A stretch of DNA of 64,000 nt from assembly GCF_000004075.3 (NCBI RefSeq), contig NC_026657.2, positions 32,474,732 to 32,538,731 of the forward strand, in the 5' to 3' direction. Of this stretch, positions 16,971 through 59,943 are shown piece after piece (the first letter of the stretch is position 1; every line of letters begins with the position of its first letter). The position numbers and the translations under genes are program-made. The stretch is from Cucumis sativus. Taxonomy: Eukaryota; Streptophyta; Magnoliopsida; Cucurbitales; Cucurbitaceae. The notes under the pieces are model-generated. The model worked only from the letters and a program-made list of their open reading frames with translations. It searched no databases and was not told where the DNA came from.

Positions 16971-17162
16971 GGCTCCTAACACTGAAAATTAAGCAAAAAC
17001 AGATTTACAAACTAGTCCGAAATTTCCTAGATAAAATGAGCAGTAGAAGCAACAATATGTGTAAAAAAAATGGCTCCTAACACTGAAAATTAAGCAAAAA
17101 CAGATTTACAAACTAGTCCGAAATTTCCTAGATAAAATGAGCAGTAGAAGCAACAATATGTG
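16971..17162. repeat. 91-bp perfect direct tandem duplication
   Basis: A unit beginning GGCTCCTAACACTGAAAATT occurs at 16971-17061 and again at 17072-17162, offset 101. No mismatch is visible by eye. The copies are separated by a short A-rich spacer like the A-run that precedes the first copy. Neither copy is coding. Confidence 0.9.
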
Positions 17163-17506: not shown

Positions 17507-17507
17507 C

Positions 17508-17581
17508 TGGCCCATGCAGGTTTCGAACCTGCGACCTTCGCGTTATTAGCACGACGCTCTAACCAACTGAGCTAATAGGCC
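17508..17581 (-). tRNA. tRNA-Ile (anticodon AAU)
   Basis: The minus strand gives a 74-nt cloverleaf. The 5' arm GGCCTAT pairs with ATGGGCC (one G-T pair) and the discriminator is A. The D-arm contains AGCTCAGTTGGTTAGAGC, the anticodon loop reads CTAATAA with AAT as anticodon, and the T-arm contains GGTTCGAAACC. Internal box A and box B are intact. No intron. CCA is not encoded, as expected for a nuclear gene. A run of T on the minus strand just downstream (complement of A at 17500-17506) is a good Pol III terminator. It looks functional. Confidence 0.97.
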
Positions 17582-21960: not shown

Positions 21961-22885
21961 TCGTATATATTTGGAATATGTCGTTTCTCTTCCTTTCAAT
22001 TCGTTGAGTTTGAATGATCTATAGATGAAGACAGTTATATAGCACCTACCCATGGATTCGTTGCATTATCAAAAAGCAAAGTAGCATTAAAACTTACTTT
22101 TCTTTTGGGGAAATGTATATATTAGAATAGGGACACTTACGCAAGTATGTACAAATACTTGTATTTGTACACTAAAACTATTAATAAAGTCCATTAGAAT
22201 TTAGAAATAGTTTCTTTACGTTCGATATCCCACCCTCCATTCTTGTACTAAAAAAATTCATTACAATTTTTCAATCCCACTACTCATGAAATGCTTCTTT
22301 CTAAAGTAGATTTTATTAACTCTATTAAGTGTTAGTTCGACTATGCTTAAGTTGACATCATCAAATAGACCATTGACGATATTTAACTTAATTTGTTACT
22401 AGAAAATTAAAATATGAAAGGCTTAGATTAGTAATTTACCACAAATTTAGTTTTGAGTTTTTAAAGCAAAACTAGAAAATGATTTTAATTCAAGAGATAA
22501 CAAATAATGGAATTCGATTCAAATCCATTCAAATTTAAAGTCGCTAAAAATCTGAAGAAAATAGCCTGATTGTATCCCCACTAAGTTCATATTTTCTTTA
22601 TGTTTTTATTCATTTCTTATTTTTAATTTTGATGCCGTCAGTACAAAACCTTTGGGTGGTTTTTTCTTCTTTTCTCTATTTTGCCCATTTTTATTCTTTC
22701 ATTTATACAATATATTCAAATTTCAAGAAAATAACAAATAATGCTCTTTTTGTCTCTTGTTCCTTGTATTTTTAGAATAAAAAAACATTTGATTATTCCT
22801 ATTATTCATTTCTAAACATTTCCATTTTTTTTTTGAAAACAACGAAAGGCAAGTTGGCTTTATTTGTGCGTTCTTATTTCTAATT

Positions 22886-27437: not shown

Positions 27438-29906
27438 TTAATAGAAGTTACCTGTCATCTGTACTTTCTTCGTTACCATTGGACTACGCCGTACCAAATT
27501 CCCAGTGATGTCTACAGCTCCTTGAATTATCTTACTTTCAACTGCTTTGTACATTTTGATTCCCTCTTCCTCCACTTTGATGGGACAATCGATGATTTCC
27601 AGGACTCTTAGGGTTTCTGTCGACCTTTGAAGCCATTCAGGCAATTTATTCACTTCTGGAAGCTCTCTGATTGTGAATCTTTGGAGGCTGAAATCGACTT
27701 TCTCTAAGCCCTTCAGTGTAAGTTGTTTGCAACTCCATATCACCAAATTCTGTAACGATATTAGAGACCCCATCTCGTTTGGCAACAATTGCAAAGAGTT
27801 ACAATCGTAAATCATTAGGGTTTCAAGGCGTACAAGGCATGATGGCCGTTCGAATAGATCTTGAAGTTTGTCACATCCTCCAATTGCGAGGAATCTTAGA
27901 GAAGTCATGGTTCCTACTCCATTTTTGTGCAAACGAAGCTTGTTTGATGTTACCCACAGGTATCTGAGGTTGCTCAACTTGCATATATCTTTTGGCAATT
28001 CTTCAAGTGCAGAACAAGATGCAAGAATCAAGGTCTGCAAATGTTGTAGATTACAGATTGCATTTGGTAACCGCTTGATGTTCTTATTCCCCTGCAAGTC
28101 GAGGTATGTTAGGTGATTCAGTGTTTCTATAGTATTTGGAATTTCCTGTAGATCTGTGTGGCCTAAATACAATAATCTTAAGTGTTGGAACTTTGAGATG
28201 CATTTTTCAGCTAGAAATGAACTAGATGGCACCTCATCTCTTACTGGGAAGGCTATAGATGTGACATTGGTGACTGGTTTAATGCTTATCAAGTCCTTAG
28301 TTCGTTTTTGCACGAGGCGTGCAAGTTCCCGAATGAGAGGGTGCATTTTAAACCAATAGCCAAGACCATATTCCTCAACATCTTGAAGGAAACATCTTGA
28401 GCATAGTTCTTTGAAATAAATCTCACCTATGTCTTCCAAGGATAAGTAATTCTCTTGGCGTGAACGGAGAAGTCCATTTGCCATCCATAACTGAATGACA
28501 TCATTTGAGGACAGTATGCTATCGTTTGGTAATTGAGAACAATAAAGAAAACAACGCTTCAGGTGTGAGGGCATCTCATTGTAGCATAGTTTAAGTATAC
28601 TAAATGTACTAGAAGACTCATTATCTCCCTTTTGTCGCTCATTATCCTCCATCCATTTAGTTGCTGGAGGACCTAGAGATAACATGCTCCCCAGACACTT
28701 TATTGCCAATGGTATTCCATTACATTTCTTCAGAGTTTTCATTATATCTTTTTCATTACCTTCATATGTAGAAGCATAATCTTTGAATAAAGAAAGGGAA
28801 TCTTTTTCTGACAGCCTCTTAACTTTGAATATTGTTTGAGAAGGGATAGATTGATCTATCTTACCCAAAGGGTTAGCTTGAACGAACTGGTCGGCGTTGT
28901 TAACATTTGCAGTCTCTTTAGTAACCGTGTCTAGGGCTGTCTGGCTCCGATTTTGCTCTGATTGTTGCCCAACCTTGTAAATCATTGTTAGTTCTATAGC
29001 ATTTGCAATTTCCTCATTCTGAGTGGTCACTATGATTTTGCTACCAGGCTTTCCCATCATCAATAAACTTGTAAACAGGGAACAATTATCTAGGTTCTTG
29101 ATTGAAAGGTCTTGAAAAACAAGCAGAAAAGTTCTCTCTCTCAGATATTGATCTGTGGGGCACAATTTTGTAGTCAAATTGTCACAAGTTGCTGGAGAAT
29201 ATGAAAAGTTGAGTATCTCTTTCATCAATCTCTGTGTATCAAATTCCTCTTTCACACAAACCCACAATCTTGATGGAAACATTCCTTCTACTTCTGGATC
29301 ATTGTAAATGAATTTGGCAAGTGTGCTCTTACCTATACCTGCTTCTCCAACTATGTGGAAGAACCCTAGAGTAGGGTTTTTGAAATCATTCAGAATCTTA
29401 CGGTACCGCTCATCCTGATAAAACTTCGGAGCATTAGTTAAGGGGTAAAGTACTTTCCAGCTTGGTTTCATGAGTCTTGTTGAAACTTCAGTAGCAGTAA
29501 GGAAAGAGTTTGTTGTCTCCGTTTTTATGGCACCAGTGTGCCTTTCTGTAAGATTAAATTCATACATTTTTGCCGCAACTTCATTCAAATGGTCGAATAG
29601 TTTCTCCATTTTCCAAGTACGTGCTATTTGATTACTGGAGCACGAGAAAGGAGCAAGTACCTGTTTACCAATACCCTCGTAGGCTTCCTCTTTGTGTTCA
29701 TCTATGAAGCCTTCAATTTGGGAAAATACATTTTGAAGCTCCTCTAGCCAATTCTGTAGACCACGACTCTGTTCTTGCTTCTCTTCCGCATCCATAAGAA
29801 TTGATTTAAGACTCAACATGGTATACTCAATTCTTCTTGGGTAGTTTGGGAGGTTTTTCAGTTCACTCAAGATGTTTTCAGCTCGGTAATAGATGCAATA
29901 AGCCAT
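27438..29906 (-). CDS. CC-NBS-LRR (CNL, RGA-type) resistance protein, copy 2
   Basis: Single exon, 822 residues, starting MAYCIYYRAENIL. Coiled-coil N-terminus (1-130). NB-ARC: P-loop GEAGIGKST (187-195), RNBS-A RLWVCVKEEFD (213-223), kinase-2 TFLLVFQD (259-266), RNBS-B GSKIIVTT (288-295), GLPL-type CNGIPLAIKCLG (395-406), CFLYCSQLPND (452-462), and MHP in place of MHD (521-523). LRRs run from about 575 to 785, with phrases such as LRLLYLG, LTYLDLQGN, LQTLILASCS and LRYLWVTSN almost identical to copies 1 and 3. The linker between RNBS-B and the conserved TIFKVKRLSEKDSLSLF segment is about 60 residues, longer than in copy 1 and shorter than in copy 3. Same strand and spacing as its neighbours, so a tandem-duplicate member. 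The same kinase-2 and MHD changes are present. The frame is intact. Confidence 0.9.
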   Translation of the reverse strand: MAYCIYYRAENILSELKNLPNYPRRIEYTMLSLKSILMDAEEKQEQSRGLQNWLEELQNVFSQIEGFIDEHKEEAYEGIGKQVLAPFSCSSNQIARTWKMEKLFDHLNEVAAKMYEFNLTERHTGAIKTETTNSFLTATEVSTRLMKPSWKVLYPLTNAPKFYQDERYRKILNDFKNPTLGFFHIVGEAGIGKSTLAKFIYNDPEVEGMFPSRLWVCVKEEFDTQRLMKEILNFSYSPATCDNLTTKLCPTDQYLRERTFLLVFQDLSIKNLDNCSLFTSLLMMGKPGSKIIVTTQNEEIANAIELTMIYKVGQQSEQNRSQTALDTVTKETANVNNADQFVQANPLGKIDQSIPSQTIFKVKRLSEKDSLSLFKDYASTYEGNEKDIMKTLKKCNGIPLAIKCLGSMLSLGPPATKWMEDNERQKGDNESSSTFSILKLCYNEMPSHLKRCFLYCSQLPNDSILSSNDVIQLWMANGLLRSRQENYLSLEDIGEIYFKELCSRCFLQDVEEYGLGYWFKMHPLIRELARLVQKRTKDLISIKPVTNVTSIAFPVRDEVPSSSFLAEKCISKFQHLRLLYLGHTDLQEIPNTIETLNHLTYLDLQGNKNIKRLPNAICNLQHLQTLILASCSALEELPKDICKLSNLRYLWVTSNKLRLHKNGVGTMTSLRFLAIGGCDKLQDLFERPSCLVRLETLMIYDCNSLQLLPNEMGSLISLQNLVIWSCKQLTLKGLEKVDFSLQRFTIRELPEVNKLPEWLQRSTETLRVLEIIDCPIKVEEEGIKMYKAVESKIIQGAVDITGNLVRRSPMVTKKVQMTGNFY

Positions 29907-34646: not shown

Positions 34647-37325
34647 CTAAGGATATATATGCATCTCCTCATTCCCATTACGCACTGCCAAATTCCGGTG
34701 TTCGAAGTCGTAACCTGGTGGTGCCATTTCAAACCTTACAGCACCATAGATTATGGTATTTTCAACTGCTTCGTACTTTTCAATTCCCTGTCGTTCCATT
34801 ATTCTTATGGGACAATTGATGATCTGCAAGGTTCTCAAAGTTTCTGCCGAGTTTTCAAGCCATTGGGGTAATCTTTCCACTCTTGGAAGCTCTTTGATCG
34901 TGAATCTTTGAAGCTTGAATTCCACTTCTTTTAAGTTTAGTGTAAGTTGCTTGCAACTCCAAATCATCAAATTTTGTAGTGATTTTAGATATCTCATCTC
35001 GTCTGGCAACAATTTCAAGGTAGTGCAATTATATATCATTAGGGTTTCGAGGCCTGCAAGGCAATCTGGGCGTTCAAATAGATTTTCTAGGTTATTGCAC
35101 CCTCCAATGGCAAGAAACCGCAGAGAATTCATGGTTCCAACTCCGTTTTTGTCCAGACGAAGCTTGTTTGTTGTTACCCACAAGTATCTCAGGCTGATCA
35201 AATTCCTTATATCCTTGGGCAGGTCTTCAAGTGCGGAACAAGATCCAAGAATTAAGGTTTGCAAACTTTGTAGATTACATATTGAATTTGGTAGATGCTT
35301 GATTTTCGTATTGCCATGCAAGTCGAGGTATCTCAGGTACTTGAGTGTTCCTATGGAATTTGGAATTTCCTGTAGGTCTGCATTGCTTAAATACAACAAT
35401 CTTAACCCTTTGTACTTCCAGATGCACTTTTCAGTTAGGGATGCATTAGGTAGCACCATATTTCTTTCTTGAAAGGCTATGGATCTTATTTCAGTGACTT
35501 CTTTGGGATGATTGTTGCCCCCCGAGCCCTCAGATTGTTCTTGTGTGATTTTGTGTGCAAGTTTTTGGATGAGAGGGTGCAATTTAATCCAGTAGCCAAG
35601 CCCATGTTCTTCAATTTCTTGAATGAAATATCTTGACCATAGCTCCATGAAGTACTTCTCACCTATATTTTCCATAGTTGAGTTCTTCTCTTCAGGTGAA
35701 TGGAGGAGCCCATTTGCCATCCATAACTGAATCATATCATTTGAAGAAATTATGCGATCGTTAGGTAATTGAGAACAATGCAGAAAACAAGGCTTCAGTT
35801 GTGAGGGCATTTGATCATAGCAAACTCTGAGTACATGTAAAATACCGTTTTCCTTTTTCTCTTGGAGCGACAACTTTTCCTCGATGTTTTTCCACTTGGC
35901 TATGCTAGTTTCTGAAGATAGCAAGCTTCCTAGACACTTTATTGCCAAAGGAACTCCCATGCATTTCTCCAAAAGTTGATCAACTATTTTAGTGAGTTCT
36001 GGATTTTCTACTTCTTGTCTGTTTCTGAAAGCATATTCTTTGAATAAACGAGATGAACTTTGCTTTGACAGTTTCTCAAGTTTGAAAATTGTTTGATATT
36101 CCGTATCATCTTGCTTTATCGGTGGGATATCTGGATTGATCCCCAAGCCAATATTAGTATCTTCTGTAACTTGTGGAATTGGAACTTCTAGATTCTGAGC
36201 ATCTTCTGTTAATGATAGGCTGTGTTCATAGATTTTGTTTGCTATAGCGTCTGCAGTTTCCTCAATTTGTGAACCTGGAACTGCTTGGTTCTGGGTATTT
36301 TTTGTTAACGACTGATTGTGTGCAGATACTCTGTCACCATTCGCCAGATTTTCCTTTGATCGTCTCTCAGTCTTGTAGCCACGGTCTTGTAAATAATTTG
36401 CAATTTCCTCAGTTTGTGTGGTCACTATGATCTTGCTGCCATGTTGTCCCATCTCCAATAATTCATTTAACACTAAAGGGGAACGATCTTTCAAGTTGGT
36501 GATTGAAAGGTCTTGAAAGACGAGCAAAAAAGTTTCCACTTTCAGAAGTCGTTTAACCTTAGAAAGCAATTGTTCTGTCGTCAAGTCCTCGCAAATTTCT
36601 TTATTGTCTGCATGACTGTAAACCTCCTTCACCAATCTATGTTTATTAAAGCCTTCCTCCACACAAACCCAGTATCTTGAAGTATACTTACCAACTACAT
36701 TGTTATGATTGTACAAGAATCTGGCCACTGTGCTCTTACCTATACCGGCTTCCCCAACTATGTGGAATACATGAGTACATTCATTGAAAACATTCAAAAT
36801 TCCATCATATATTTCGTCATATGTTCTGGAAGCATCTATTAAAGGGTAAAGCAATTGCCAACTTGGTTTCAGGTGTCTTATTGAAATTTCTGAAGCACTA
36901 GGGAAAGTGTGTGTTGTCTCCATACTTATGGAATCAATGTGCTTTACTTTGAGATGAAATTCATACATTCTGGTTGCAATGTTATTGAGTTCGTCGCATA
37001 CTTGCTTCCTTTTACATTTCTGTTTCAATTTATTTGCAGAAATTTGATTAGAGCACGAGAAAGGGGCAAGTACCTGTTTTCCAATGTCCTTTTGTTTGAA
37101 GATTTCCCATTTGAATTCATCTATGGAGTCCTCAACTTGGTAAAAGACATTTTGAAGTTCCTTTAGCCAGTTCTGTAGACGTTGATTTTGTTCTTGCTTC
37201 TCTTCAGCATCCAAAAGAACCGCTTTAAGGCTCGACATCGCATACTCTATTCTTTTTTGGTAGGGTGGGGAATCTTTTAGCTTAGTCAAGATATTTTCAG
37301 CTTGGGTGTAGATGCAATGAGCCAT
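34647..37325 (-). CDS. CC-NBS-LRR (CNL, RGA-type) resistance protein, copy 3, with enlarged NB-ARC linker
   Basis: Single exon, 892 residues from the first ATG (37325); the frame extends nine codons further upstream but without an ATG. Coiled-coil N-terminus (1-135). P-loop GEAGIGKST (191-199), RYWVCVEEGF (217-226), kinase-2 TFLLVFQD (265-272), GSKIIVTT (296-303), GLPL-type CMGVPLAIKCLG (455-466), CFLHCSQLPND (513-523), LHP for MHD (582-584), LRRs about 640-850. About 105 residues separate RNBS-B from the TIFKLEKLSKQ segment, against about 40 in copy 1. The extra part contains two related stretches (SLTKNTQNQAVPGSQIEETA and SLSLTEDAQNLEVPIPQVTE), so it grew by internal duplication. Third and most diverged member of the tandem cluster. 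The frame is intact. Confidence 0.9.
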   Translation of the reverse strand: MAHCIYTQAENILTKLKDSPPYQKRIEYAMSSLKAVLLDAEEKQEQNQRLQNWLKELQNVFYQVEDSIDEFKWEIFKQKDIGKQVLAPFSCSNQISANKLKQKCKRKQVCDELNNIATRMYEFHLKVKHIDSISMETTHTFPSASEISIRHLKPSWQLLYPLIDASRTYDEIYDGILNVFNECTHVFHIVGEAGIGKSTVARFLYNHNNVVGKYTSRYWVCVEEGFNKHRLVKEVYSHADNKEICEDLTTEQLLSKVKRLLKVETFLLVFQDLSITNLKDRSPLVLNELLEMGQHGSKIIVTTQTEEIANYLQDRGYKTERRSKENLANGDRVSAHNQSLTKNTQNQAVPGSQIEETADAIANKIYEHSLSLTEDAQNLEVPIPQVTEDTNIGLGINPDIPPIKQDDTEYQTIFKLEKLSKQSSSRLFKEYAFRNRQEVENPELTKIVDQLLEKCMGVPLAIKCLGSLLSSETSIAKWKNIEEKLSLQEKKENGILHVLRVCYDQMPSQLKPCFLHCSQLPNDRIISSNDMIQLWMANGLLHSPEEKNSTMENIGEKYFMELWSRYFIQEIEEHGLGYWIKLHPLIQKLAHKITQEQSEGSGGNNHPKEVTEIRSIAFQERNMVLPNASLTEKCIWKYKGLRLLYLSNADLQEIPNSIGTLKYLRYLDLHGNTKIKHLPNSICNLQSLQTLILGSCSALEDLPKDIRNLISLRYLWVTTNKLRLDKNGVGTMNSLRFLAIGGCNNLENLFERPDCLAGLETLMIYNCTTLKLLPDEMRYLKSLQNLMIWSCKQLTLNLKEVEFKLQRFTIKELPRVERLPQWLENSAETLRTLQIINCPIRIMERQGIEKYEAVENTIIYGAVRFEMAPPGYDFEHRNLAVRNGNEEMHIYP

Positions 37326-39607
37326 ATTATTTTTGGAAAATATCGCTCTCACAATTTTCTTGAGTTTGGAATGGTTAAAATGAGGGTAGTTGATATAAAC
37401 ACTTACTCCATGGTGATTCTTTGTGTTTTTTGTGAAGCAAGATAGCTTAAAAAACTCAACACTCTTGGGAAAGGTATCTTCTTCCTTCTACTCTCAAGAA
37501 TAGAATAGGATTACTCTTAGGTTTTGTAATTATATAGACAATAATTTAAATAGGAGGAGTTTTAGAGAAGCTGAAACTAATTTATATATTTCGGTGCAAT
37601 ATTTTTCTTTGCTAACGGGAACATTGCTCAGTTAGTATAAAATCTGAACTATCAACTTCAACATATTTCCTACCCGGGTATAGACCAAAAAATTGATAAA
37701 TTGATCTTTACAATAATGATTTTCTTTAGGACTATTTTATGTTTAAGATGACTTTTCCCCTCTTTGTCTTATATCTTATTGGAAACACGTGGCGTGTTTG
37801 TTAGAGGCTCTGAAAACAAAAATTTTAAAACAAGGAATTAAATGAAAATAAAGTTATGTTTTTGGTTTTTAGATATCTGTTTGGTAGTAAAATTCTGAAA
37901 TTGTAACCATTAGAAAATAGTTACAACTATTCACCCAATATTTGTTGGCAATAAACTACATGTTTCTCTTAAAAGAAAATTGTAAAGTTTTTAATTTATA
38001 ATATGATGTAATTTACAGGATAAATAAAGTTATAATTTGTCCATCTTTTCATAGCAAACCATAGAGGCAAAGGATTTTAAATCTAAATTTTAACAAACAT
38101 ATGTACTAACTTTTTAACTTTATCAAAATCATATAGACAAGATTTGGAATTTAACCTAATTTATTTTTTAGTTTATTTTACTGGATGTTAAAACACGAAT
38201 ATGTTAGTTTTATTTTATTTTTTATTCTACTAAATGCAATGTTATTTTTTTAAAATTGTTTCGTTCTGTGTAGAACAAATATTGTTTTCACAAAAAGAAT
38301 TTAGATGGTCTATCAAATACGGTCTATCAAATACATATTCATTGAATTTGTGTCTTGGTTTTTCATGAAAAGACCAAAAAATGTTCGTTGAGGTATTTTC
38401 TCTTCCTTCCTTTAATGAACAAATAAACTCTATTCTTGCTTTGTTATAGCCTCTCTTCCTACCTTTGCATACACACACATATATATACAATCCAAAACTC
38501 GAGTCTTTGCATACACACATATATACACACACATGTATATTCTTTTCCCTTGTAAGGAAGAACGGTGAAGGAGTGGTGTTAGTATCCTCTAAACTAGTAG
38601 TTTTCAAGATCTAAGACATAAGTAGAGTAAAAGTGAAACTTTTCAAAATCTATAAAAAGTTTAAGAGTATTTCGTATAATTTAACAACTTTTTAATATTT
38701 AAGAAACAAACTTAAAGTGAGTGTTTGGTATAATTTAACCGGATATGAGCGAAGTTGATTAAAATAAGAATAAATTGCAACGAGTAAAAATAACGGTTAA
38801 ACTTATATATCACTAATAGACTTCTACCAAACATATGATACATAGCTGATAAACTTAAAAGTTGGATCGAAATTTTTTTATACTTGAATTTTTTTTATTA
38901 GGTTTATGTTTGCAATTGTTCCTTTATCGACTAGTTTTTCACTTTTTCTTTCTCCAATATGTTTCCAATAACTTTACCAAAAAAACACCAATTAGTATTT
39001 AAATAAAATAATTTAAATTTGAAATCCTATTCAAAATAGAAATTTTGATTCAAAAATTGGTTAAACTTAAATCAAAAGATAAGCTAAATAAATTTCAAAT
39101 TAAAATAAAATTGAATTTAGTTATAATCAATTATCCATCCTAAATCAACTTCCATAAATTCTATCTTAGAATCGTTAAACTAAATTTTGTAAACCCCAAC
39201 ATCTACCTTGTATGCAATTTGGACATCTTCAAACTTTATCCCAAATAACGATCAAACTCAAATCCAATCGGGGTGACATTCATATGCAATCTCAAATATT
39301 GAAATTTTAAAAAGAGACTCAAAGGTGCATTTTCAAGTGTGTTAATATATCAAACAAGTCATTTTGAAGAAAATTATTAGAGTACTTGATAACCATCCAA
39401 AATAGTTTTTGAATTATATTTTGAACAATTTTTACCAAAAAAAAGTTTAATTAAAAATGAGTTTTGTAAGAACATTATTTTTAAGTAAATTCTACACTAC
39501 CTCTAGAGAAAAAAAATGCAAACAAAGCTACTTTGATTAGTTTAAGTTTTGCCCTGATAAGTTTAAGTTGTAAGCTTTTTTATTTTAGTTGGTAGGGAAA
39601 GGAAAAC
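37326..39607. other. intergenic between NLR copy 3 and PPR gene
   Basis: The 5' flank of NLR copy 3 (to about 37530) retains faint similarity to the other two NLR flanks (GGGAAAGGTA, AGAATAG). The rest is AT-rich. A CA/TA-rich patch at 38464-38535 underlies a spurious ORF, and a 15-bp direct repeat GGTCTATCAAATAC lies near 38308-38335. Nothing else is supportable. Confidence 0.5.
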
Positions 39608-41422
39608 TTATATACAAAATGTACTATGTTCCTCTATCCCATAGCTCTTTAAATGAGTAGCAATTCCTTCCAATACTAAGTATATAACTTTGCTCCTTGG
39701 ATGTGATTTGTCTCCTTTTCGAAATTCATGAACGACACCATCAACTTCAATCAAACTACATCCAGGGGTCTTTCTCATCTTCTTATTTTTCATTGTCTTT
39801 CTTATTTTCAATGCATCTTTCCATCTATGAACAGAAGAATATAAATTCGTCATAAGAATGTACGTACCTTCTTCATCCGGATCTAACTCCGTCAACTTTT
39901 GCATCACACTTTCACCAATATCGACATTTCCATGAATCCTGCATGCCCCTAATAACGCTCCACAAGCGAAGACATCGGGCCTGATTTCCATTTTGTGAAT
40001 AATCTCTTCTGCTTCCTTCACTAACCCTGCACGACCAAGAAGGTCAATCATGCAACCGTAATGTTCTGCTTGAGGTCTAAGCTTATATTTATCTGACATC
40101 TGAAAAAAGTACTTCTTCCCTTCAGCAACCAATCCGCCATGGCTACAAGCCATAAGAAGACCTAAAAATGTTACTTCGTTTGGCTCGATACCAACTCGAA
40201 ACATCTCGGAGAAGACCTGGAATGCCCAGTTTGCTTCACCATGCAAGGCTAAACCAAATATCATGGCAGTGTATGAATAAACATCCCTTCTTTTCATGCT
40301 CTCGAACACCCTAAAAGCTTCATCTATACTTCCACATTTTGCATACATATCAAGAAGCGCATTCCCAACAAATTTATCGGCTAAAATATGATTTCTACGC
40401 ATGTATGCATGAACCCACTTACCTATTTCAAGGACTCCAAGGTTTGCACAAGAATTCAAAACCCCCACTAAGGTCACTTCATCTGGCTTGACCCCTTTGT
40501 CTTGCATCATACGGAACGTATCTAGAGCTTCCCTGTACCGACCTTGGTAAGCCAATCCCGAAATCATAGCATTCCATGTAACAACGTTTTTCACAGGCAT
40601 TTCGTCGAACACTTTGTAAGCAGAGTTCAAATCATCACATTTCAGGTACATATCTAACAGAGCATTACCAACAAATACATCTGCTTTCATGTCAATGTAA
40701 TGGCGGATATAGGAATGTACCTTTTGACCCAAATTCAGGTCTCCCAAGTTGGAGCAAGCAGAGAGGACAACCACGAGAGTCCGCCCATCAGCTCTTAGCC
40801 TCAAATCACACATTTCCATAAAAGCTTCTACTGCTCTGCTGTATAGCCCGGCCTTCGTAAACGCTTGAATGAGTGTAGTCCAAGACACCAAGTCGCGGTG
40901 AGGACATTCGTCGAACACCTTCTGGACATCGTGGATAGAGCCACAGACGGAATAAAGTCTCATCAGTGTATTACTCACATAAACATTGAACCCCACCATT
41001 CCAGTCTTGATTGAACGAGCGTGAATCTGTTGGCCTTCTCTAATCCCTTGAATCAGAGCCAATGCCTTGAGAACAAGAGGTATTGTGAATCCATCTGGTT
41101 CGAGGCCGACGACAAGCATTTCGTTCAAGAACTCCATGGGCGAGAGATTGATGGAGTTGCGAGAAATGCTGCGGATGATAGCGTTGCAGAGACTGAGACA
41201 GAATTGAGCATCATGGGAGTGAGTAAGAAGGATGGAGCGAATGTAGAAAAGGTCAGGGGAGGAGGAGGAGGAGGAGGAGGAGAGAAAGATGAGCTTGGGA
41301 ATGAGATTGGGGAGAGAGAGAGAGGGTGTTTTAATGGCGACGCCATGGATTTGCTTGAGGTGAGATATGGATTTGCAGGAATTGAGGGAGTGAGAAAAAA
41401 GATGGAGTTGCAGGGAATTCAT
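39608..41422 (-). CDS. pentatricopeptide repeat (PPR) protein, PLS class with E domain
   Basis: Single exon, 604 residues. PLS-class PPR proteins bind organellar RNA, often for C-to-U editing or splicing in plastids or mitochondria. The body holds about a dozen PPR motifs, with phrases such as VGNALLDMYLKCDDLNSAYKVF, NVVTWNAMISGLAYQGRYREAL and KPDEVTLVGVLNSCANLG. It ends with an E/E+-type domain (about 495-604: EEGTYILMTNLYSS, MRKTPGCSLIEVDG, VHEFRKGDKSHP) and has no DYW cytidine-deaminase domain. If it edits, it would need a separate deaminase partner. A poly-Ser run at about 49-56 comes from a GGA-repeat tract. The N-terminus (MNSLQLHLFSHSLNSCKS) could be an organelle presequence, with the compartment unclear. 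The first ATG was chosen and no in-frame alternative lies upstream. Codons 1-121 are duplicated at 41890-42250. Confidence 0.92.
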   Translation of the reverse strand: MNSLQLHLFSHSLNSCKSISHLKQIHGVAIKTPSLSLPNLIPKLIFLSSSSSSSSPDLFYIRSILLTHSHDAQFCLSLCNAIIRSISRNSINLSPMEFLNEMLVVGLEPDGFTIPLVLKALALIQGIREGQQIHARSIKTGMVGFNVYVSNTLMRLYSVCGSIHDVQKVFDECPHRDLVSWTTLIQAFTKAGLYSRAVEAFMEMCDLRLRADGRTLVVVLSACSNLGDLNLGQKVHSYIRHYIDMKADVFVGNALLDMYLKCDDLNSAYKVFDEMPVKNVVTWNAMISGLAYQGRYREALDTFRMMQDKGVKPDEVTLVGVLNSCANLGVLEIGKWVHAYMRRNHILADKFVGNALLDMYAKCGSIDEAFRVFESMKRRDVYSYTAMIFGLALHGEANWAFQVFSEMFRVGIEPNEVTFLGLLMACSHGGLVAEGKKYFFQMSDKYKLRPQAEHYGCMIDLLGRAGLVKEAEEIIHKMEIRPDVFACGALLGACRIHGNVDIGESVMQKLTELDPDEEGTYILMTNLYSSVHRWKDALKIRKTMKNKKMRKTPGCSLIEVDGVVHEFRKGDKSHPRSKVIYLVLEGIATHLKSYGIEEHSTFCI

Positions 41423-41885
41423 ACACAGATATGGATATGGCTGTTGTAACGTTGTTGGATGTGAATGGTTCCTACTATTTTGATCTATTACTAGAAGAAC
41501 AAAAGCAACTCAGAATTTGTTTTGGAGACGTTTCATCAAACACTTTAGGAGCAAAAACCAAATAACCATCCATCTAAGTAAAATCTCCTATGCCACATCT
41601 CTTCACACCAACAACATGCCGTAGCAGCAGAAATTCAAACCCCATTCAAAGGAACACAAAAAATGCAGAGAAAACATCTTTAAGAATTAACCTCAAATTT
41701 TCTTAGAAACCAAATATATCCAAGTCTTTCCCATCTCGAGGAGCAAAAAAGAAGTGTGAAGTCTGTCAGACCGCCTTGTGGCCATCCCAGCAGGTTGGAA
41801 GCCTGCCAAGAACGATCCTCCACAGCCGCCAGACCGAGATCTGTCGAACCGTTAATCACGCTCTAGCCACAGGGCAGCAATTCAT
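41062..41885. repeat. 824-bp direct duplication, left copy
   Basis: The same 824 bases recur at 41890-42713 with a constant offset of 828 and no difference I can see. The unit runs from codon 121 of the PPR gene through its ATG and 5' flank and ends inside a U3 snoRNA sequence. Only four bases (GTGG, 41886-41889) separate the copies. It is either very recent or an assembly artefact. Confidence 0.95.
41760..41885 (-). pseudogene. truncated U3 snoRNA (3' 126 nt only)
   Basis: Identical to the 3' part of the complete U3 gene at 42588-42798, including the box C-like ATCGTTCTTGG and box D TCTGA. It stops at the duplication junction, so the 5' domain and the whole USE/TATA promoter are missing. 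It cannot make U3 from its own promoter. Confidence 0.9.
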
Positions 41886-41889
41886 GTGG

Positions 41890-42250
41890 ATGCCTTGAGA
41901 ACAAGAGGTATTGTGAATCCATCTGGTTCGAGGCCGACGACAAGCATTTCGTTCAAGAACTCCATGGGCGAGAGATTGATGGAGTTGCGAGAAATGCTGC
42001 GGATGATAGCGTTGCAGAGACTGAGACAGAATTGAGCATCATGGGAGTGAGTAAGAAGGATGGAGCGAATGTAGAAAAGGTCAGGGGAGGAGGAGGAGGA
42101 GGAGGAGGAGAGAAAGATGAGCTTGGGAATGAGATTGGGGAGAGAGAGAGAGGGTGTTTTAATGGCGACGCCATGGATTTGCTTGAGGTGAGATATGGAT
42201 TTGCAGGAATTGAGGGAGTGAGAAAAAAGATGGAGTTGCAGGGAATTCAT
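41890..42250 (-). pseudogene. truncated PPR copy (first 121 codons)
   Basis: This repeats the PPR gene's start and first 121 codons without change and then runs across the duplication junction into unrelated sequence, reaching a stop within two codons (nominal ORF 41882-42250, 122 residues). It keeps the parent's 5' flank up to the U3 gene, so a short transcript is possible. It lacks nearly all PPR motifs and the E domain, so a PPR function is unlikely. Confidence 0.9.
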
Positions 42251-42713
42251 ACACAGATATGGATATGGCTGTTGTAACGTTGTTGGATGTGAATGGTTCC
42301 TACTATTTTGATCTATTACTAGAAGAACAAAAGCAACTCAGAATTTGTTTTGGAGACGTTTCATCAAACACTTTAGGAGCAAAAACCAAATAACCATCCA
42401 TCTAAGTAAAATCTCCTATGCCACATCTCTTCACACCAACAACATGCCGTAGCAGCAGAAATTCAAACCCCATTCAAAGGAACACAAAAAATGCAGAGAA
42501 AACATCTTTAAGAATTAACCTCAAATTTTCTTAGAAACCAAATATATCCAAGTCTTTCCCATCTCGAGGAGCAAAAAAGAAGTGTGAAGTCTGTCAGACC
42601 GCCTTGTGGCCATCCCAGCAGGTTGGAAGCCTGCCAAGAACGATCCTCCACAGCCGCCAGACCGAGATCTGTCGAACCGTTAATCACGCTCTAGCCACAG
42701 GGCAGCAATTCAT
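41890..42713. repeat. 824-bp direct duplication, right copy
   Basis: Partner of 41062-41885. This copy continues rightward into the rest of the U3 gene and its promoter, so the right end is the ancestral configuration and the left copy's right junction is the new one. Confidence 0.95.
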
Positions 42714-42798
42714 CCACCAGACTTTGGTTCTTGTCTCCTTAGAACTCAAGGACACAGATGTACAACCTATAGAACAGATCCTGTTCAAGTAAGGTCGT
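42588..42798 (-). ncRNA. U3: U3 snoRNA gene, complete copy A
   Basis: Transcribed from the minus strand. The 5' domain reads ACGACCTTACTTGAACAGGA then TCTGTTCTATAGG, which is the plant U3 5' end that pairs with pre-rRNA (boxes A' and A). Further on come GTGGATGAATTG (C'-like), GAGCGTGATTA (B-like), AGGATCGTTCTTGG (C-like) and a 3' terminal GTCTGACAGACTT with box D. Length about 211 nt, normal for plant U3. U3 guides 18S rRNA maturation in the nucleolar SSU processome. Upstream are a USE and TATA with Pol III-type spacing. It lies head-to-tail upstream of the PPR fragment. The 62-codon plus-strand ORF across it is a shadow. Confidence 0.92.
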
Positions 42799-42820
42799 GA
42801 CTCTTCAGCTCAATCTTCTT

Positions 42821-42864
42821 GTTTAAATAGCGTATATCCTTACTAAAAATTTACGATGTGGGAT
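42821..42864 (-). promoter_or_regulatory. U3 promoter (USE + TATA), copy A
   Basis: On the minus strand, the upstream sequence element ATCCCACATCG (42854-42864) matches the plant snRNA consensus RTCCCACATCG exactly. It is followed after 24 bases by TATTTAAAC (42821-42829) and after 22 more bases by the U3 5' end. The short USE-TATA gap is the one known for Pol III-transcribed plant U3 and U6; Pol II-type snRNA genes have about ten bases more. Confidence 0.9.
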
Positions 42865-42883
42865 TTCCAATAGGCCTTTTAAG

Positions 42884-42950
42884 TGGGCCTTTCCGTACTT
42901 CGGAGAGGGAGATTTACTGCAGTTTTGGACTTTGTTTACCTGACCACCCA
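42884..42950 (+). pseudogene. short fragment of DUF309 gene exon 2
   Basis: Sequence such as GTGGGCCTTTCCGTACTT and CTGCAGTTTTGGACTTTGTT matches, in reverse orientation, exon 2 of the DUF309 gene at about 47905-47973. About 65 bases are retained, directly next to the U3 USE. Non-functional. Confidence 0.85.
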
Positions 42951-42957
42951 CACTGAA

Positions 42958-44635
42958 TAAATGAGTTCTTACAATTATTTTAACACGAAGCTAAGAGGAA
43001 GGAGTTATTTTATGGGTATAGATTTGAAGAAAAAAACTCTCCTTTTTTTTTCTTTGTTTTGTTTTAATTTTGTTAACCTGCTCTCCCTAATTTTAACTCT
43101 TATTTCATTTTTTAGTTTTCTACTATTTATTAGTTCATTGTCTAAGGAAATGTTAATTAATTTTGAGATTAAACACCAATCTTATCAAATACGATAGTTT
43201 ATCATTCAGAGACTCTAATAGTTAGATTTAAATTATAATATGATAGTGTTAATTGATACAAATTCCACCAACACTTTCAAGTTTGAACTATATTTGCAAT
43301 TATCTTTATTTACAAAGGAAATTGGGTTGATTAATAATTTTTCTAAAATTATTTTGTTTAAATTGTAATTCACTCCATAACTTCCTTTCCAATTCCATTC
43401 GATAAATAAAATTTTAAATTATTAAAAAATAATTTTCCATATACTAATTTGAAACTAATAATATGAGTAACTTGACCCAAATACTTGTTAGTTGAATTGA
43501 ACATAAGTTTACTTTTTCTTTTCTTGGTAAGTTATGAGTAAAAGTTTTGTTTGTGTAATTTTATTCTAAGTTGAATAAAATTACAATTTCAATAATAATA
43601 GTAATAAAGAAGTTTTTTTTTTTTTGACCTAATTGCCATCCCAAAACACACTCAAAATACCATGGAAAAGTTCCACCTCCAAAAGTTAGGACAAACCTAT
43701 ACACTATTTAACAAAATGATGGAGTAAAAGAAGCACGACCTTACTTGAATAGGATTGTTCTATAGTGAATAATTTAGATTTAAAGTTATATAAAGAAAAT
43801 GTTTTTTTTTCGAGCTGTAATTGATATTTTACAAATAAAATATAGTTAAAAAAAAAAACCTTTATGAATATGAGATTTGATTTTTTTTTTCCTTTTAACC
43901 CAAATTTAAGATTATTACTATTTTAATTTTTTTTTCAAGTGAATGATTACGAATAAAATGTGATTTTTTTCCATGAAATGAAGATATATTTTTTAAAATA
44001 GAAAATTATGCTGAATGAATAAAAATAGGGTAGATGGTCCATCTGTTTTTCTCGAAAAAGAAATTTTAGTTTAAACTTCTGTCATTATATTATATTCGTG
44101 TCTATGTCAAATTTGTTATTTTTTATAATTTCTTTGGAGGGTATATTTGTTTTTCTTTCAAAAATTGGTTTACAATCGGGTAGTATGTATTTTTTTCCAA
44201 GAAGATTTATTTTGGACAACATAAACAAAACAGGAGCTAAGAATTAGAAGAAAAAAAAAGTAAGATAGGGAGAATAAGGGAAAGAAATAAGAAATAAACC
44301 TACCTTATACAAATTGAAAGCAATTAGTAAGCTCTAAATGTTATTGTTTTGTGAATAGTGTGGATTTACATCTAAACTTATTGGCCTACATTTATATTTA
44401 ATCAAATTTAAAAGTGAAGAAAAAAACTTATAAAAAACTACTAACTACTTGAAACTCAAAGCACGTGGTCTGTTTTTCTTCTCCATGTCTTCATTATGTG
44501 TTGATTAGTAGGATTAATATACTTGTAAAATCATTTAAAGAAAGAAGAAGAAGAAACTGCATTAAAAGTAAAAAAATTATATTCAATCATCATTGAGGAG
44601 AAAATAATAATAATTGAAAAAACCTATGCCATGTT
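42958..44635. other. AT-rich spacer between the two U3 modules
   Basis: No gene. Poly-T and poly-A runs (for example 43613-43625) and TAATAATA patches only. No trace of the PPR/U3 module within it. Confidence 0.6.
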
Positions 44636-44708
44636 TTTGCTTGAGGTGAGATATGGATTTGCAGGAACTGAGGGAGTGAGAAAAAAGATGGAATTGTAGG
44701 GAATTCAT
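44636..44708 (-). pseudogene. second PPR 5' fragment (about 24 codons)
   Basis: The minus strand from 44708 repeats the PPR start with a few substitutions (MNSLQFHLFSHSLSSCKS versus MNSLQLHLFSHSLNSCKS) and breaks off after about 24 codons. It marks the left end of the diverged second copy of the PPR-U3-DUF309 module (44636-45490). Confidence 0.85.
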
Positions 44709-45018
44709 ACACAGATATGGATATGGCTGTTGTAATGTTATTGGATGTGAATGGTTCCTACTTTTTGATCAATTAGTAGAAGAACAAAAGCAACTCGAGA
44801 ATTTGTTTTGGAGACATTTCATCAAACACTTTAGGAGCAAAAACCAAATACCCATCCATCTAAGTAAAATCCCCCATCCCTCATATCTCTTCACACAAAC
44901 AACATGCCGTAGCAGCAGAAATTCAAACCCCATTCAAAGGAACACAAAAAATGCAGAGAAAACATCTTTAAACCAAATACCCACCATTCCAAGCAGAAGA
45001 ACAAAAAAAAGTGTTCGA

Positions 45019-45229
45019 AGTCTGTCAGACCGCCTTGTGGCCATCCCAACAGGTTTGGAACCTGCCAAGAACGATCCTCCACAGCCACCAGACCGAGATC
45101 TGTTGAACCGTTAATCACGCTCTAGCCACAGGGCAGCTATTCATCCACCAGACTTTGGTTCTTGTCTCCTTAGAACTCAAGGACACAGATGTACAACCTA
45201 TAGAACAGATCCTGTTCAAGTAAGGTCGT
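45019..45229 (-). ncRNA. U3: U3 snoRNA gene, complete copy B
   Basis: Same length as copy A (211 nt), with about seven substitutions and no indel by eye. The 5' domain (TTGAACAGGATCTGTTCTAT), B-, C- and D-box segments are unchanged. Several substitutions cluster in one internal hairpin. Copy A has CAGGCTTCCAACCTG there and copy B has CAGGTTCCAAACCTG, which still folds and in copy B gives a perfect 6-bp stem. The flanks have gained indels while the RNA has not, suggesting selection. The promoter is present with one USE mismatch. Confidence 0.9.
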
Positions 45230-45251
45230 GACACTTCACCTCAATCTTTTT

Positions 45252-45295
45252 GTTTAAATAGAATATAGTCTTATTAAAAATTTACAATGTGGGAT
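45252..45295 (-). promoter_or_regulatory. U3 promoter (USE + TATA), copy B
   Basis: The USE reads ATCCCACATTG (45285-45295), one base off the plant consensus (C to T at position 10). TATTTAAAC lies at 45252-45260. The 24-base USE-TATA gap and 22-base TATA-to-start gap are the same as in copy A, fitting Pol III. The mismatch may weaken it. Confidence 0.8.
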
Positions 45296-45317
45296 TTCTA
45301 ATAGGCCTTTTCTTTTA

Positions 45318-45490
45318 AGTGGGCCTTTCCGTCCTTTTGAGCGGGAGATTACTGCAGTTTTGGACTTTGTTTACCCGACCACCCACATTGAATTAGCTGC
45401 CTCTGATGAGTTCTTTTTCTCCATTACAACTCCATTTTTTTATCTCAAACTTTGTAGTGCTCTTCTGAAAGAGAAATTGATTTCGTACTT
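45318..45490 (+). pseudogene. fragment of DUF309 exon 2 and start of intron 2
   Basis: About 170 bases match, in reverse orientation, the DUF309 gene at 47795-47973. The match covers exon 2 sequence (GCAGTTTTGGACTTTGTTTA, GAATTAGCTGCC) and continues past the 5' splice site into intron 2 (TCCATTACAACTCCA, GTAGTGCTCTTCTG). Because intron sequence is included, it arose by DNA copying, not from spliced RNA. Several indels; not functional. Confidence 0.88.
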
Positions 45491-46481
45491 CAATTTTTTT
45501 TGTTAGCTTTTAAATATTTAACTTGGTTTTAAAAACAATCTAAACAGATAGCCAGATAGCCACACCATTTGGATCATAAGGTTAGTGTTCATGAAAAAAA
45601 AACTAAATGATTATTTAAACGTCCATAGTTATATAGACTATTTAATAACTATTTAATTTGGATAAGTTTGAGAATTCAAGTTTATCATTTACATGTTCAT
45701 TTTCAACAATTATTGTATACTTAGTGATATAATTTTAATCTCGCTAAGAATTTGGGTGTCCAATTTTTACAATTGAAATTTTGATAGCGTAATTTCAACT
45801 AACGTCATGCCATACTTCAAGAAGTACTTCTGCAATTTGTCTTTTTTTTATAATATTGATAGTGAGAGATTGAATCTCAAACTTAGAGCAAATTTAGACG
45901 TCTCGTGTTGGAGGTTCTACCATTATTTAACGAAGAACAAATAATTTTTCAACTTAAACAAGAAACTAACATGGCTTCTAATTTTATTGTAAATTCAAAT
46001 ATAACTTAATTAGGGAAGATATATATAATCTAGAAAAGTATTCTATGCCGATTTAAAAAAAAAAAAAAAAAAACCACTCTAAAATATCATAACATTAGTT
46101 AGAATAAAAAAAAGTTACATCCCTAATAATTATCTTACATGCTTTTATATGCATCCAAAAGTAAAAGGAAATGTTAAAACAAATATCAACATTACTTTTA
46201 GAAATGAGTTTATATCAATTGTCTTAGAGGGAATTCTTCCATTAGTATTTTGCTTTAAGATAGAATGTCCTTAAATTCAAAGTAAAAAACGCAACTAAAA
46301 TCACGAAATGTTATATGAAGTAAATATACACAATCATCAAAGTTCAAATAACTTAATCGATAATTTAACCTTGAATGGTTCGTTTCTAACAGATACCAAA
46401 TACTACCTATACTATTGTACTAGTAAAGTGAGATATTTCTTGTATCTCCTGAATGCTTGTAAAAGAAAATGACAAGTAATA
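45491..46481. other. AT-rich spacer before DUF309 gene
   Basis: No gene. Contains an A19 run at 46055-46073 and AT-rich sequence only. The 3' UTR and poly(A) region of the minus-strand DUF309 gene presumably lie in the last few hundred bases. Confidence 0.5.
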
Positions 46482-48488
46482 TCAATGGGAATCAAGGGCT
46501 AAAAGGTGTTGTTTGGTAGCATCAAGAGTGGGAAGCTTTACCCTTAGAGGATGAGTTTGAGATGTTTGAGAAGAAAAAACAATGCACGTACTTCCATCAA
46601 CTTGTTTCTCCATATCATACAGCTTCTGTCCTTCACCATACCTTCCAAGTAATTCATATGATCTCTCTGAACCCTCCATTGTGACACATACACTCTCATC
46701 ACCTGTTTCATATCCAAAATAATCATTTCATTTCATTATGTTATTTCATCCATTCATATTTGTTTCAGTATCAAGGACAAGTAGTTTAAAGTTAAAAATT
46801 TAGATTATAAACTTATACTTCCTTACATGGTTTTTGTATCAATTTTAAGTAAAAAGTTGCATGCATACTTAGCCAAATTCTAAAAACAAAAACAAGTTTC
46901 TAAGATCTACCTTTTTTTTTTTAGTATTCAGATTTTAGCTTGGTTTTTTAAACCGTTGCTAAGCATATAACAATGGAATAAATTTAGAGGTTACTAGTGT
47001 TTATGGGGTTAATTTTAAAGAGCAAAACAGTTACCAACCCGACCTTAGTTATGAACTTTTAAAGACGGCCTTAGTCAAAGGATTTCTTAACTCTATAACT
47101 CTTCCGGAGATTAAATAGTTAATTCGTTGTATTAAATTTATAGAGTTTCATCTCAAAGTCAAGTGACAACGAAAAGAGTAACTCATTTGTCTTATAAAGA
47201 ATGTGCAATACCTTAATTTTTCTAAAGGTAAACAATGAAAATTCAAGCGCAACAAATTTTATTAACATTTTCTTTTTCATTATTTATAGGTCACTTCAAA
47301 TTCATTTATTCTATAGATTTTCCCACATCATATCATTTAATAAACAATGTTAACTAGGAAAGAACACGTAAAAGTGCAATTCCTAGTTCAATATAGTCCT
47401 TGAAACATACCCAAGTTCCACGTTTAAGTTTACATTTGATAATCATTTGGTATGAATACTAAGGTTAGATGTGGCTATCTTTTTCAAGTGTTTTTAAAAT
47501 CAAGTCAAAATTTTAAAAGCTGACCAAAAAAAAAGATTAAATTAAAACTTGTTTTGTTTTTGGAATTTTGTTAAATTTTAACTCTTAATACTTAAAAAAT
47601 GATATATGCCCTTTGTAAAATTTATAAGAAAATAGGTTTAATAAAAATAAAAAAAAAAGTTCCGATGGAAAGTAAATCATCCACTTCTCAAATCTCTCAA
47701 AGTTTGAAAACATGACACAACAAGAAGAAAGTTGAATTATTAAATCAGCAAGCAAGTTTGTCCTTTCAAAGTTTATACACTAAAAACAAGAATGGAATTA
47801 CGAAAGCAATCTCTGTTCCAGAAGAGCACTAAAAAGTTTCAGAGCAAAAATTGGAGTTGTAATGGAGAAAAAGAAGAACTCACAGGCAGCTAATTCAATC
47901 TGGGTCAGGTAAACAAAGTCCAAAACTGCAGTAATCTCCCTCTCAAAAGTACGGAAAGGCCCACTCGGAAACTCCATCTTCCGTAGCTTACAGACCCCTT
48001 CTCCAAGCTCCATCATCGCCCCTCTATGATTCTAACCCAGAAACAAATTCAAACAAACACACAGCAACGATATGATACCACCAAACGAAAATAGAGATTA
48101 TGAAATCACAAACCCGATTGAAGAGATGATGAAGCCCCACAGCGCACTGAAGAATGCCATGAATTAGGGTTCTAGTAGGGTCCTCGGCTTCGTTCCACAG
48201 AGCCTCAAGAACGTCATGGCAATCGTAATAAGCTCCTTGATTGAAGAGATCGACTGCTTCATCGAAGCCGAAATCTCCGGTGATTTTCTCATCTCCGTCT
48301 TCGTGGTCAGCGGTGAATCGGTAGGAGGTACGAAAGGAGAGGGGTATCGTGGTTATTCTTCGACTGTTCGTGGTTCTTGGAGAGCTTTGGAGGGTGGAGC
48401 CATGGGGGGAAATGGAGCTGAAAGTGCGGTGAGGCGGAAGAGGGGATGGGAAGGAGGAGGAAATATAGAGTGATAGAAGAGAAGCCAT
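46482..48488 (-). CDS. DUF309-family protein, probably chloroplast-targeted
   Basis: Three coding exons: 48114-48488, 47884-48031 and 46482-46702, giving 247 residues. Donors are GTTTGT and GTGAGT and acceptors TTAG and ACAG; the frames join exactly (phases 0 and 1). Residues 1-60 are Ser-, Pro- and Arg-rich (MASLLSLYISSSFPSPLPP), a typical plastid transit peptide. Then comes the DUF309 core: FDEAVDLFNQGAYYDCHDVLEALW, HGILQCAVGLHHLFNRNHRG, AMMELGEGVCKLRKM. The C-terminal exon continues DESVCVTMEGSERSYELLGR. DUF309 is found in cyanobacteria and plants; its biochemical role is unknown to me. The frame is open further upstream to 48626 but contains no earlier ATG, so 48488 is the start. Fragments of exon 2 were copied to the U3 modules at 42.9 and 45.3 kb. 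Intron 2 (46703-47883) contains a MITE-like repeat. Confidence 0.88.
46860..47040. repeat. MITE-like repeat inside DUF309 intron 2
   Basis: Phrases TTAGCCAAATTCTAAAAACA, GCTTGGTTTTTTAAACC and AAATTTAGAGGTTACTAGTG match a repeat I associate with cucurbits, related to 30418-30690. It lies wholly in the intron. Confidence 0.45.
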
Positions 48489-50482
48489 TGTCGATTGATT
48501 GAAGAAGCTCGAGAAATTGGAGCCATTTCTTGAGCTTGGTGTGACTTTTTTTTGGAATGAAGGGTTGGAGGTTTCGTGTGAGGCTGTGTGGCCTTGAAGT
48601 GGTGGACAGAAAATGATCTTTGTCAATATGTGAGATGAAGTTTAGTTTTGTAGTCTTTAAAATAGATGAGCAGAATGAGTTTAGAAGGCTCTTTCTTAAT
48701 ATTGTTGTTGTCTACCACCATAATTATCATTGTCTATCCCTCTTTCCTTCTAAAATTTAATTGTCAAATGCATTCCTAACCAATAAATGGATTGTTGTTG
48801 ATTATGTATTTAGGTCCATTTTTTTTATGCACACCACCTTGTGACTGTAGATTTACGGGTTCTTATTAAACAAATCTAAAGAGAAAATCATCCAAATGTT
48901 CAAACAAAACTAGATTTAAAATAATAAAATATTGAAGATCATCAAGAAAGGCATACGTTTTATTTTCCATAAAAAAGATTCAAATGCATTATTACATAAA
49001 GCACCTCTTTAAAATGAAATAAAAGATTTACCTTAAAAAAGATTTATGTTTATTTGCCATAAAACCTAGCTGCATAAAACCCAAACTACCCTATCCTCTT
49101 ATTTAGAACATGATGTTCCTAAATTTTTAAAAGGCATTTCTAAATTTTTAAAAGGCATTTTAAGTTCACGATGTCCTTAAATTTTTAAAATATATTTTAT
49201 TTTTATATAGACCTTTTTTTGAAATTATCAATATGAATTTTTAAAAAGCATTTTAAGTTTATGATGTCCTTAAATTTTTAAAATATATTTTATTTTTAAA
49301 CAAACTTTTTTGTATTGATAATATATTTTATTTTTATACAAACTTTTTTTTGAAATTATCAATATGAAAAGGTGGTAGTTGCAATTACTAGATTTCAAAC
49401 TCAAACCACCTCCAAGCAAATAGAATAAATTGGATTTTATAGGAATTGAATTGTACTCAAGGTTACATTTTGAAATACTGATATCCACAAAATGTCACAA
49501 TCTCAATTTCAATATTCAGTTAAATTATAATTTAACGTTCTTTCATTCACTTTCTCATTCCTTCTTTCTTGTGTTTAAATTTACTGTTTTATTCAACCAA
49601 TAACTTAATTTAGATCCTTAAGTTCATCAAAAACATTTATTTGCTACTACATTTGGGTTAAGGAGAAAAAGAAAAAAGACAAATATATACAATCACATTT
49701 AAAAAACGCCATATCCATAACTGTACAGATCAATATCAAACAAGTTTTAATCACAAAAAGACTTTCGTAAGTTCCACCCCTAAAAACTTTCATTTATTCA
49801 TTTCAGGCAAAAGATTTCCTGATAAAAAGTGTGTATTGCATTAGGAATAGAGATTCAAGCCTACAACATCCAAAAAGTATGTTTTGTTGGGAATACTCTA
49901 TGGTCATTAAACCCTAAAACTTTTTTATCAAATATGGATTTTGAAACTATTCCAAAAAACACCATCCATTTATGCAAAATATGATCAAATAGGGTGCACA
50001 TTTGTAATGTGACTTGAAAAAACTTGAGAAATCAAGTATCAAACTCTAAAAAACTAAAAAATGAGAAACCAATCATGAATTTTGCATATTTTGTGTGTTC
50101 CAAACTTGACCCTTAGTAGATCGAGAGAGCTCCTAACTTGGCCAAGTAAACAATTGCTTGCACAGTATATTGCTGCTTCATACAATGAATCACCTACATT
50201 GCAAACATAGCTGATGTTAATTTTAAATGAGGTTATCATTCAATTCCACATTGTCTTAGTGAATTTGACTCTCAATCCTATGTTGACATTCCAAGTTTCT
50301 TGTTAATTGGCAAGTTGCTTTAGTTCCATTCTAGGGAACAATTAAATTCACTACAAAAAAAAATAGACACTCATGCTTTTTTCTACTATGTTGCTAATTA
50401 TTTGCAGATGTATGGAAGTAAAAAAAAACAAAGTGGATAGAAAGAGACCTTAGCGATCATTTCATTTCCTTCATCATCAATT
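48489..50482. other. intergenic with local tandem repeat
   Basis: The 5' flank of the DUF309 gene, then AT-rich spacer. A tandem repeat of about 100-115 bp occurs at 49110-49375. The final part is the 3' flank of the PQ-loop gene. No other gene. Confidence 0.55.
49110..49375. repeat. AT-rich tandem repeat, about 2.5 copies
   Basis: The series GATGTCCTTAAATTTTTAAA, ATATATTTTATTTTTA and GAAATTATCAATATGAA recurs in order two to three times with small changes and length differences. Confidence 0.7.
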
Positions 50483-59685: not shown

Positions 59686-59764
59686 AGTATGGCCAAACAT
59701 TTAGATTCCGAATCTTGGTTTAGAGTAGAAGAGTTATCCGTGAGTATAGTCAAAGACAAGCATG

Positions 59765-59943
59765 AGCTAACACTCATGAATATTTAAAAATAGTACTTTT
59801 AAAAAATATTTCTATTTGTTGGCAGAAGCAACAGATTTACAATCAACAAGTGTCATAAGCTAACACTCATGAATATTTAAAAATAGTACTTTCTGAAAAC
59901 AATTCTATTTGTTGGCAGAACCAACAGATTTATAATCAACAAG
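59765..59943. repeat. direct tandem duplication, period 93
   Basis: AGCTAACACTCATGAATATT...TTGTTGGCAGAAGCAACAGA occurs at 59765-59850 and again at 59858-59943 with a handful of substitutions. It lies 80 bases after the 5S relic and could be part of the same inserted block. Confidence 0.85.

Follow-up and report, generated by a model that had tools for sequence, protein, structure and literature searches.

Two plant U3 snoRNA genes of Pol III type in a locally duplicated block of Cucumis sativus DNA

Introduction

U3 is needed for 18S rRNA production, and plant U3 promoters are used for guide RNA expression. Plant U3 genes (Rfam family RF01847; Arabidopsis U3a-c, grape VvU3.1 and VvU3.2) have a USE and a TATA-like box and are of the Pol III type (PMC9845283, PMC7917103, PMC8747350). 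Several copies are present per genome, with three U3 genes named in Arabidopsis and two promoters in grape. Plant U6 snRNA genes encode a different RNA but likewise have a Pol III-class promoter made up of a USE and a TATA box, and the USE consensus of the soybean U6 genes is given as RTCCCACA(T/C)(T/C)G (PMC4448504). A review of plant Pol III promoters places a USE with the consensus RTCCCACATCG about 70 nt upstream and gives a rule on the USE-TATA gap for the Pol III class of plant snRNA-type genes (PMC9845283). According to the same source, an upstream RGCCCR element adds promoter strength in monocots, while in dicots the quality of the USE is said to set strength and the sequence upstream of the USE to be of no importance.

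In Euglena gracilis, one study describes multi-copy U3 genes that stand alone or are linked to U5 snRNA or tRNA genes (PMC2784804). In one variant a C-G pair close to the terminal stem-loop is exchanged for U-A in a compensatory manner, and behind one of the U3 genes lie a second U3 3′ end and terminator that arose by duplication (PMC2784804).

The window analyzed here is a stretch of 64,000 nt of Cucumis sativus DNA. Two U3 copies, termed A and B, are found in tandem 2.4 kb apart, together with a fragment (C) and an inverted stub (D). The pair is like the named plant U3 genes in its USE, TATA-like box and presence in several copies, but unlike them it sits with a DUF309 piece, a PPR 5′ end and U3 fragments, a distinction that is drawn from descriptions and not from sequence letters. 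The tandem arrangement also differs from that of Euglena gracilis, where PCR reportedly found no tandem U3 genes (PMC2784804). The reading preferred here, with a probability of roughly 0.8, is that A and B are paralogous plant U3 genes of Pol III type, carried by a tandem-duplicated DUF309-U3-PPR block, with C arising later, D being older, and selection acting on the RNA. The locus is a further case of a known gene type and will not surprise a specialist. It is a small example of an independent RNA gene that was multiplied by tandem duplication and joined to pieces of neighboring exons, leaving dead fragments, and the A/B pair represents two candidate promoters.

Results and Discussion

Two full-length U3 RNAs

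An Rfam scan of the window gave two end-to-end matches to the Plant_U3 model (RF01847; length 221, gathering score 80 bits), in agreement with the first-pass annotation, which had reported two full-length 211-nt minus-strand U3 sequences here and had proposed a covariance-model check with Rfam U3 (Table 1). Both scores are above gathering. With membership in RF01847 defined by a full-length match above gathering, A and B pass, and C and D fall below. In the Rfam alignments, the conserved 5′ domain and GUCUGACAG of both copies agree with the consensus letters. The conserved U3 boxes of A and B include the terminal box D (GUCUGA). The two RNAs show seven base differences (nt 92, 126, 143, 170, 172, 174 and 181) and no indel, matching the earlier count of roughly seven copy-specific bases; these include A126, U143 and U181 in A, and G126, C143 and C181 in B. 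Because the two arose by copying, they do not count as independent evidence. A and B are almost certainly true U3 genes and both are structurally complete; both are probably transcribed.

The Rfam scan of the window showed no match to U6 at the gathering score. For an outgroup U3, a 27-nt U3 pattern had no matches in bacterial and archaeal contigs and a 24-nt pattern none in viral contigs. A 19-nt pattern was found at three bacterial loci, but nothing in these reached Rfam gathering scores and the matches are considered chance.

Table 1. Positions of U3 sequences, promoter and terminator motifs, duplicated segments and neighboring genes in the 64,000-nt window
Feature	Position	Strand	Evidence or remark
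U3 copy A, full-length RNA, 211 nt	45019-45229	-	RF01847 173.6 bits, E 1.4e-47, model 1-221/221
USE of A, ATCCCACATTG	45285-45295	-	consensus match scan; one mismatch to RTCCCACATCG
TATA of A, TATTTAAA	45253-45260	-	24 nt after USE, 23 nt before RNA; coordinates derived from gaps
T8 run, candidate Pol III terminator of A	45003-45010	-	begins 9 nt past RNA end
U3 copy B, full-length RNA, 211 nt	42588-42798	-	RF01847 172.6 bits, E 2.8e-47, model 1-221/221
USE of B, ATCCCACATCG	42854-42864	-	consensus match scan; exact to RTCCCACATCG
TATA of B, TATTTAAA	42822-42829	-	gaps as in A; coordinates derived from gaps
T6 run, candidate Pol III terminator of B	42573-42578	-	begins 10 nt past RNA end
Fragment C, same as B over U3 nt 86-211; promoter and 5′ domain missing	41760-41885	-	RF00012 36.7 bits (gathering 34); RF01847 56.4 bits (below 80)
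Stub D, inverted, U3 nt 1-32 with 1-nt deletion	43735-43765	+	30/31 aligned bases same as A and B; Rfam 17.8 bits, E 0.36
Decayed promoter of D, USE-like and TATA-like boxes, 24-nt gap	43670-43734	+	4 mismatches in joint scan; identity 31/45 to A, 30/45 to B
Duplicated block around A	44628-45393	-	self-comparison
Block copy that contains B (with DUF309 piece, promoter, U3, 3′ flank and first PPR coding bases)	42170-42958	-	89.1% over 799 columns to 44628-45393
Tandem duplication	41062-42713		41062-41885 = 41890-42713, 824 bp, 100%; 4 bases (41886-41889) between
PPR protein gene, uninterrupted, 604 aa	39608-41422	-	PPR_2 198.8 bits, E_motif 74.0 bits
Truncated copy of PPR 5′ end, 122 aa, stops in first codons of C	41882-42250	-	ORF; no Pfam match
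DUF309 gene, first exon ORF 48024-48626, next exon ORF 47798-48016	47798-48626	-	PF03745 71.8 bits on first ORF
Exon end and presumed intron of DUF309, copied in inverted orientation upstream of USE of A	45318-45514	+	85.3% over 197 columns to 47772-47965
Exon end of DUF309, copied in inverted orientation upstream of USE of B	42882-42945	+	95.3% over 64 columns to 47903-47965

Promoter and terminator motifs

Matches to the USE consensus with at most one mismatch occur in the window at A and B only. As 0.59 matches are expected and 8/100 shuffles gave at least two, the USE alone is weak evidence. A joint scan of both strands for the USE, a fixed 24-nt gap and TATTTAAA found B with 0 mismatches and A with 1, the runners-up being two places with 4 mismatches, one of which is stub D. 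In both genes the USE lies at about -56 to -66 relative to the RNA start. The identical USE-TATA spacing that had been noted earlier is present, at 24 nt in each; the TATA-RNA distance is 23 nt with the 8-nt TATTTAAA, and the previous figure of 22 fits a 9-nt TATA. The 24-nt gap fits the Pol III class. The gaps also fit the geometry in the promoter review, in keeping with the Pol III-type promoter first proposed (PMC9845283). A and B, which lie inside a locally duplicated block, have the make-up usual for plant U3 genes of Pol III type.

Both RNAs are followed by a run of T residues, and runs of at least six T are found in 3.1% of sampled 20-nt stretches of the window (559/18276). TTTT is absent inside both RNAs, but this says little because 15.8% of sampled 211-nt stretches of window DNA (2875/18226) also are without TTTT.

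A possibility we regard as unlikely is that only B works and that A is a recently silenced copy. The USE of A has one mismatch, and USE quality is the feature said to set promoter strength in dicots (PMC9845283); in addition the immediate 3′ flank of A is much changed, with 11/24 nt different from B. However, the CATTG of A (for CATCG) falls within the soybean U6 USE consensus (PMC4448504), the Rfam score of A is as good as that of B, its T-run is longer, and nonstandard consensus pairs number three in A versus four in B.

Conservation of the RNA sequence

The A and B copies were compared segment by segment. Substitutions number 7/211 in the RNA, 10/75 in the promoter (45304-45230, from the USE to the RNA start), 38/384 in the 3′ flank and 12/83 in the DUF309 piece; indel events number 0, 0, 4 and 1, respectively. 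The RNA is less diverged than the 3′ flank (p 0.003), but at no better than p 0.044 when the first 24 nt of the flank, which are its most diverged part (11/24), are left out. Nt 1-91 show 0/91 differences, compared with the 3′ flank at p 0.0004, or 0.0026 without the 24 nt, whereas nt 92-211, with 7/120 differences, are not significantly below the 3′ flank (p 0.20; 0.68 without its first 24 nt). Thus the selection on the RNA that was suggested by the first-pass annotation is borne out in the 5′ domain but lacks proof in the 3′ domain. Over its full length the promoter shows no greater conservation than the 3′ flank (p 0.41), with its boxes and gaps kept. The 3′ flank of B was probably the promoter of the PPR gene, and the flank may therefore be somewhat constrained itself.

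The changes in the 3′ domain were also placed on the Rfam consensus structure, where A has 63 standard, 3 nonstandard and 4 gapped pairs, and B has 61, 4 and 5. A126-U143 in A is replaced by G126-C143 in B, a double change that keeps the consensus pair and resembles the exchange in the Euglena gracilis variant. At pair 165-181, A has G-U where B has G-C. Nt 92, 172 and 174 have no partner in the consensus, and through the change at 170 the U170-A176 consensus pair is lost from B. With seven random changes, at least one compensatory pair arises by chance in 2.8% of cases over the whole RNA, or 4.5% over nt 92-211. The small number of broken pairs is not significant as a sign of selection, as 23-25% of random trials had at most one broken pair. 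Minimum-energy folding gives mixed support to pairing of 126 with 143: the two bases are paired in the modeled folds of nt 105-192 of both copies, as they are in the Rfam alignment, but are unpaired in the full-length minimum-energy folds and in 47-nt folds (nt 114-160, all four base combinations).

The likeness of the two RNAs could alternatively stem from gene conversion between the copies and not from selection. A and B are close tandem copies with no differences over nt 1-91, and the comparison rests on just two full copies. Yet the identity starts at the RNA start, and differences are back within a few bases of the RNA end, borders that conversion would ignore; one double change preserves a pair; and the diverged copy D also has an RNA part that is far more conserved than its promoter. 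Gene conversion is an unlikely source of the likeness, and selection on the RNA, mainly on the 5′ domain, is the explanation kept here.

Duplicated segments and U3 fragments

Self-comparison of the window shows the block shared by A and B, which ends about 80 bases into PPR coding sequence, and bears out the proposal that U3 copies are multiplied here by local segmental duplication. Two dead fragments, C and D, had been overlooked in the first-pass annotation. The 3′ part of B was carried to C by the 824-bp exact tandem duplication. The RF00012 match at 41766-41885 that corresponds to C was considered as a third U3 gene and rejected, as it is without nt 1-85 and a promoter and is an exact copy of part of B. 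C is much like the duplicated 3′ end of the Euglena gracilis gene mentioned above.

The perfect identity over 824 bp raises the question of whether the repeat, and C with it, is an assembly artefact. This is quite unlikely: the junction bases 41886-41889 fit neither parent and resemble end-joining filler, which simple doubling of a contig would not create.

Stub D lies between A and B and was detected in the window self-comparison at E 6e-10 or better. Over the promoter part near the RNA that was compared with D, A and B are identical at 38/46 positions. Judged by these sequence comparisons, D looks older than the A/B split, as its RNA part is almost unchanged and its promoter part is less similar to A or B than these are to each other; the RNA of D probably was conserved until its truncation. 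A retroposed origin of A, B or D was rejected, as all three have promoter sequence upstream of the RNA.

Neighboring PPR and DUF309 genes

The earlier description of PPR and DUF309 debris is misleading: the PPR gene itself is an open 604-aa ORF and the DUF309 domain is in an open exon, and what amounts to debris are partial copies of the two. After the recent 828-bp repeat, the intact PPR gene is now found behind a copied promoter region and the dead U3 piece C.

The exon borders of the DUF309 gene given here are our reading of the sequence. The second exon ORF, 47798-48016, has no Pfam match, and a third coding piece was recognized by eye at 46600-46720, where the translation stays open in a single frame. 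In addition to the inverted copies upstream of the two USEs, a further piece at 45494-45557 matches 47469-47532 at 82.8%. The DUF309 exon similarity stops at GGCCCACT at both A and B, and the pieces at both have the same 3 extra bases relative to the DUF309 copy. This common end and these common bases make it probable that a single joining event, earlier than the A/B duplication, lies behind both.

That the DUF309 piece now contributes to U3 promoter function, as a Pol III enhancer of coding-exon origin, is very improbable: the piece has a GGCCCA that fits RGCCCR, the booster element of monocot snRNA genes, but it is not conserved, 12/83 bases differing between A and B, and sequence upstream of the USE is said to be without effect in dicots (PMC9845283). 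In that case two U3 forms with distinct 3′ domains would be expressed, one from A and one from B, if the piece did so contribute.

Proposed function and history of the locus

Under the preferred reading of A and B as paralogous Pol III-type genes, factors that bind the USE and TATA would recruit Pol III, which would start at the A of ACGACC and stop in the T-run. The trimmed RNA would then enter the U3 snoRNP and pair with pre-rRNA for the release of 18S rRNA.

The homologies suggest the following history. An ancestral U3 gene would have been situated about 340 bases ahead of the PPR gene, and an inverted piece of the neighboring DUF309 gene would have joined directly upstream of its USE. The block consisting of the DUF309 piece, U3 and the first PPR bases may then have been duplicated in tandem to form A and B. 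Much later the 828-bp tandem repeat, probably produced via end joining, would have created the dead fragment C. D would represent an older U3 copy that underwent inversion and truncation. A and B would have stayed alike through selection on the RNA, mainly on its 5′ domain, while their flanks drifted.

Other features of the window

For a 562-aa ORF at 12558-14246 (+), Pfam gave no hit at E 1e-5. A tRNA-Ile gene (anticodon aat) is at 17507-17582 (-), and short near-exact tandem repeats are at 16962-17162 (100 bp, 99%) and 59761-59943 (90 bp, 91%). Three related NB-ARC/LRR disease-resistance-type genes are found on the minus strand at 19549-22053, 27438-29906 and 34647-37352, with ORFs of 834, 822 and 901 aa. 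Their DNA identity of ~68-77% points to a local resistance-gene cluster.
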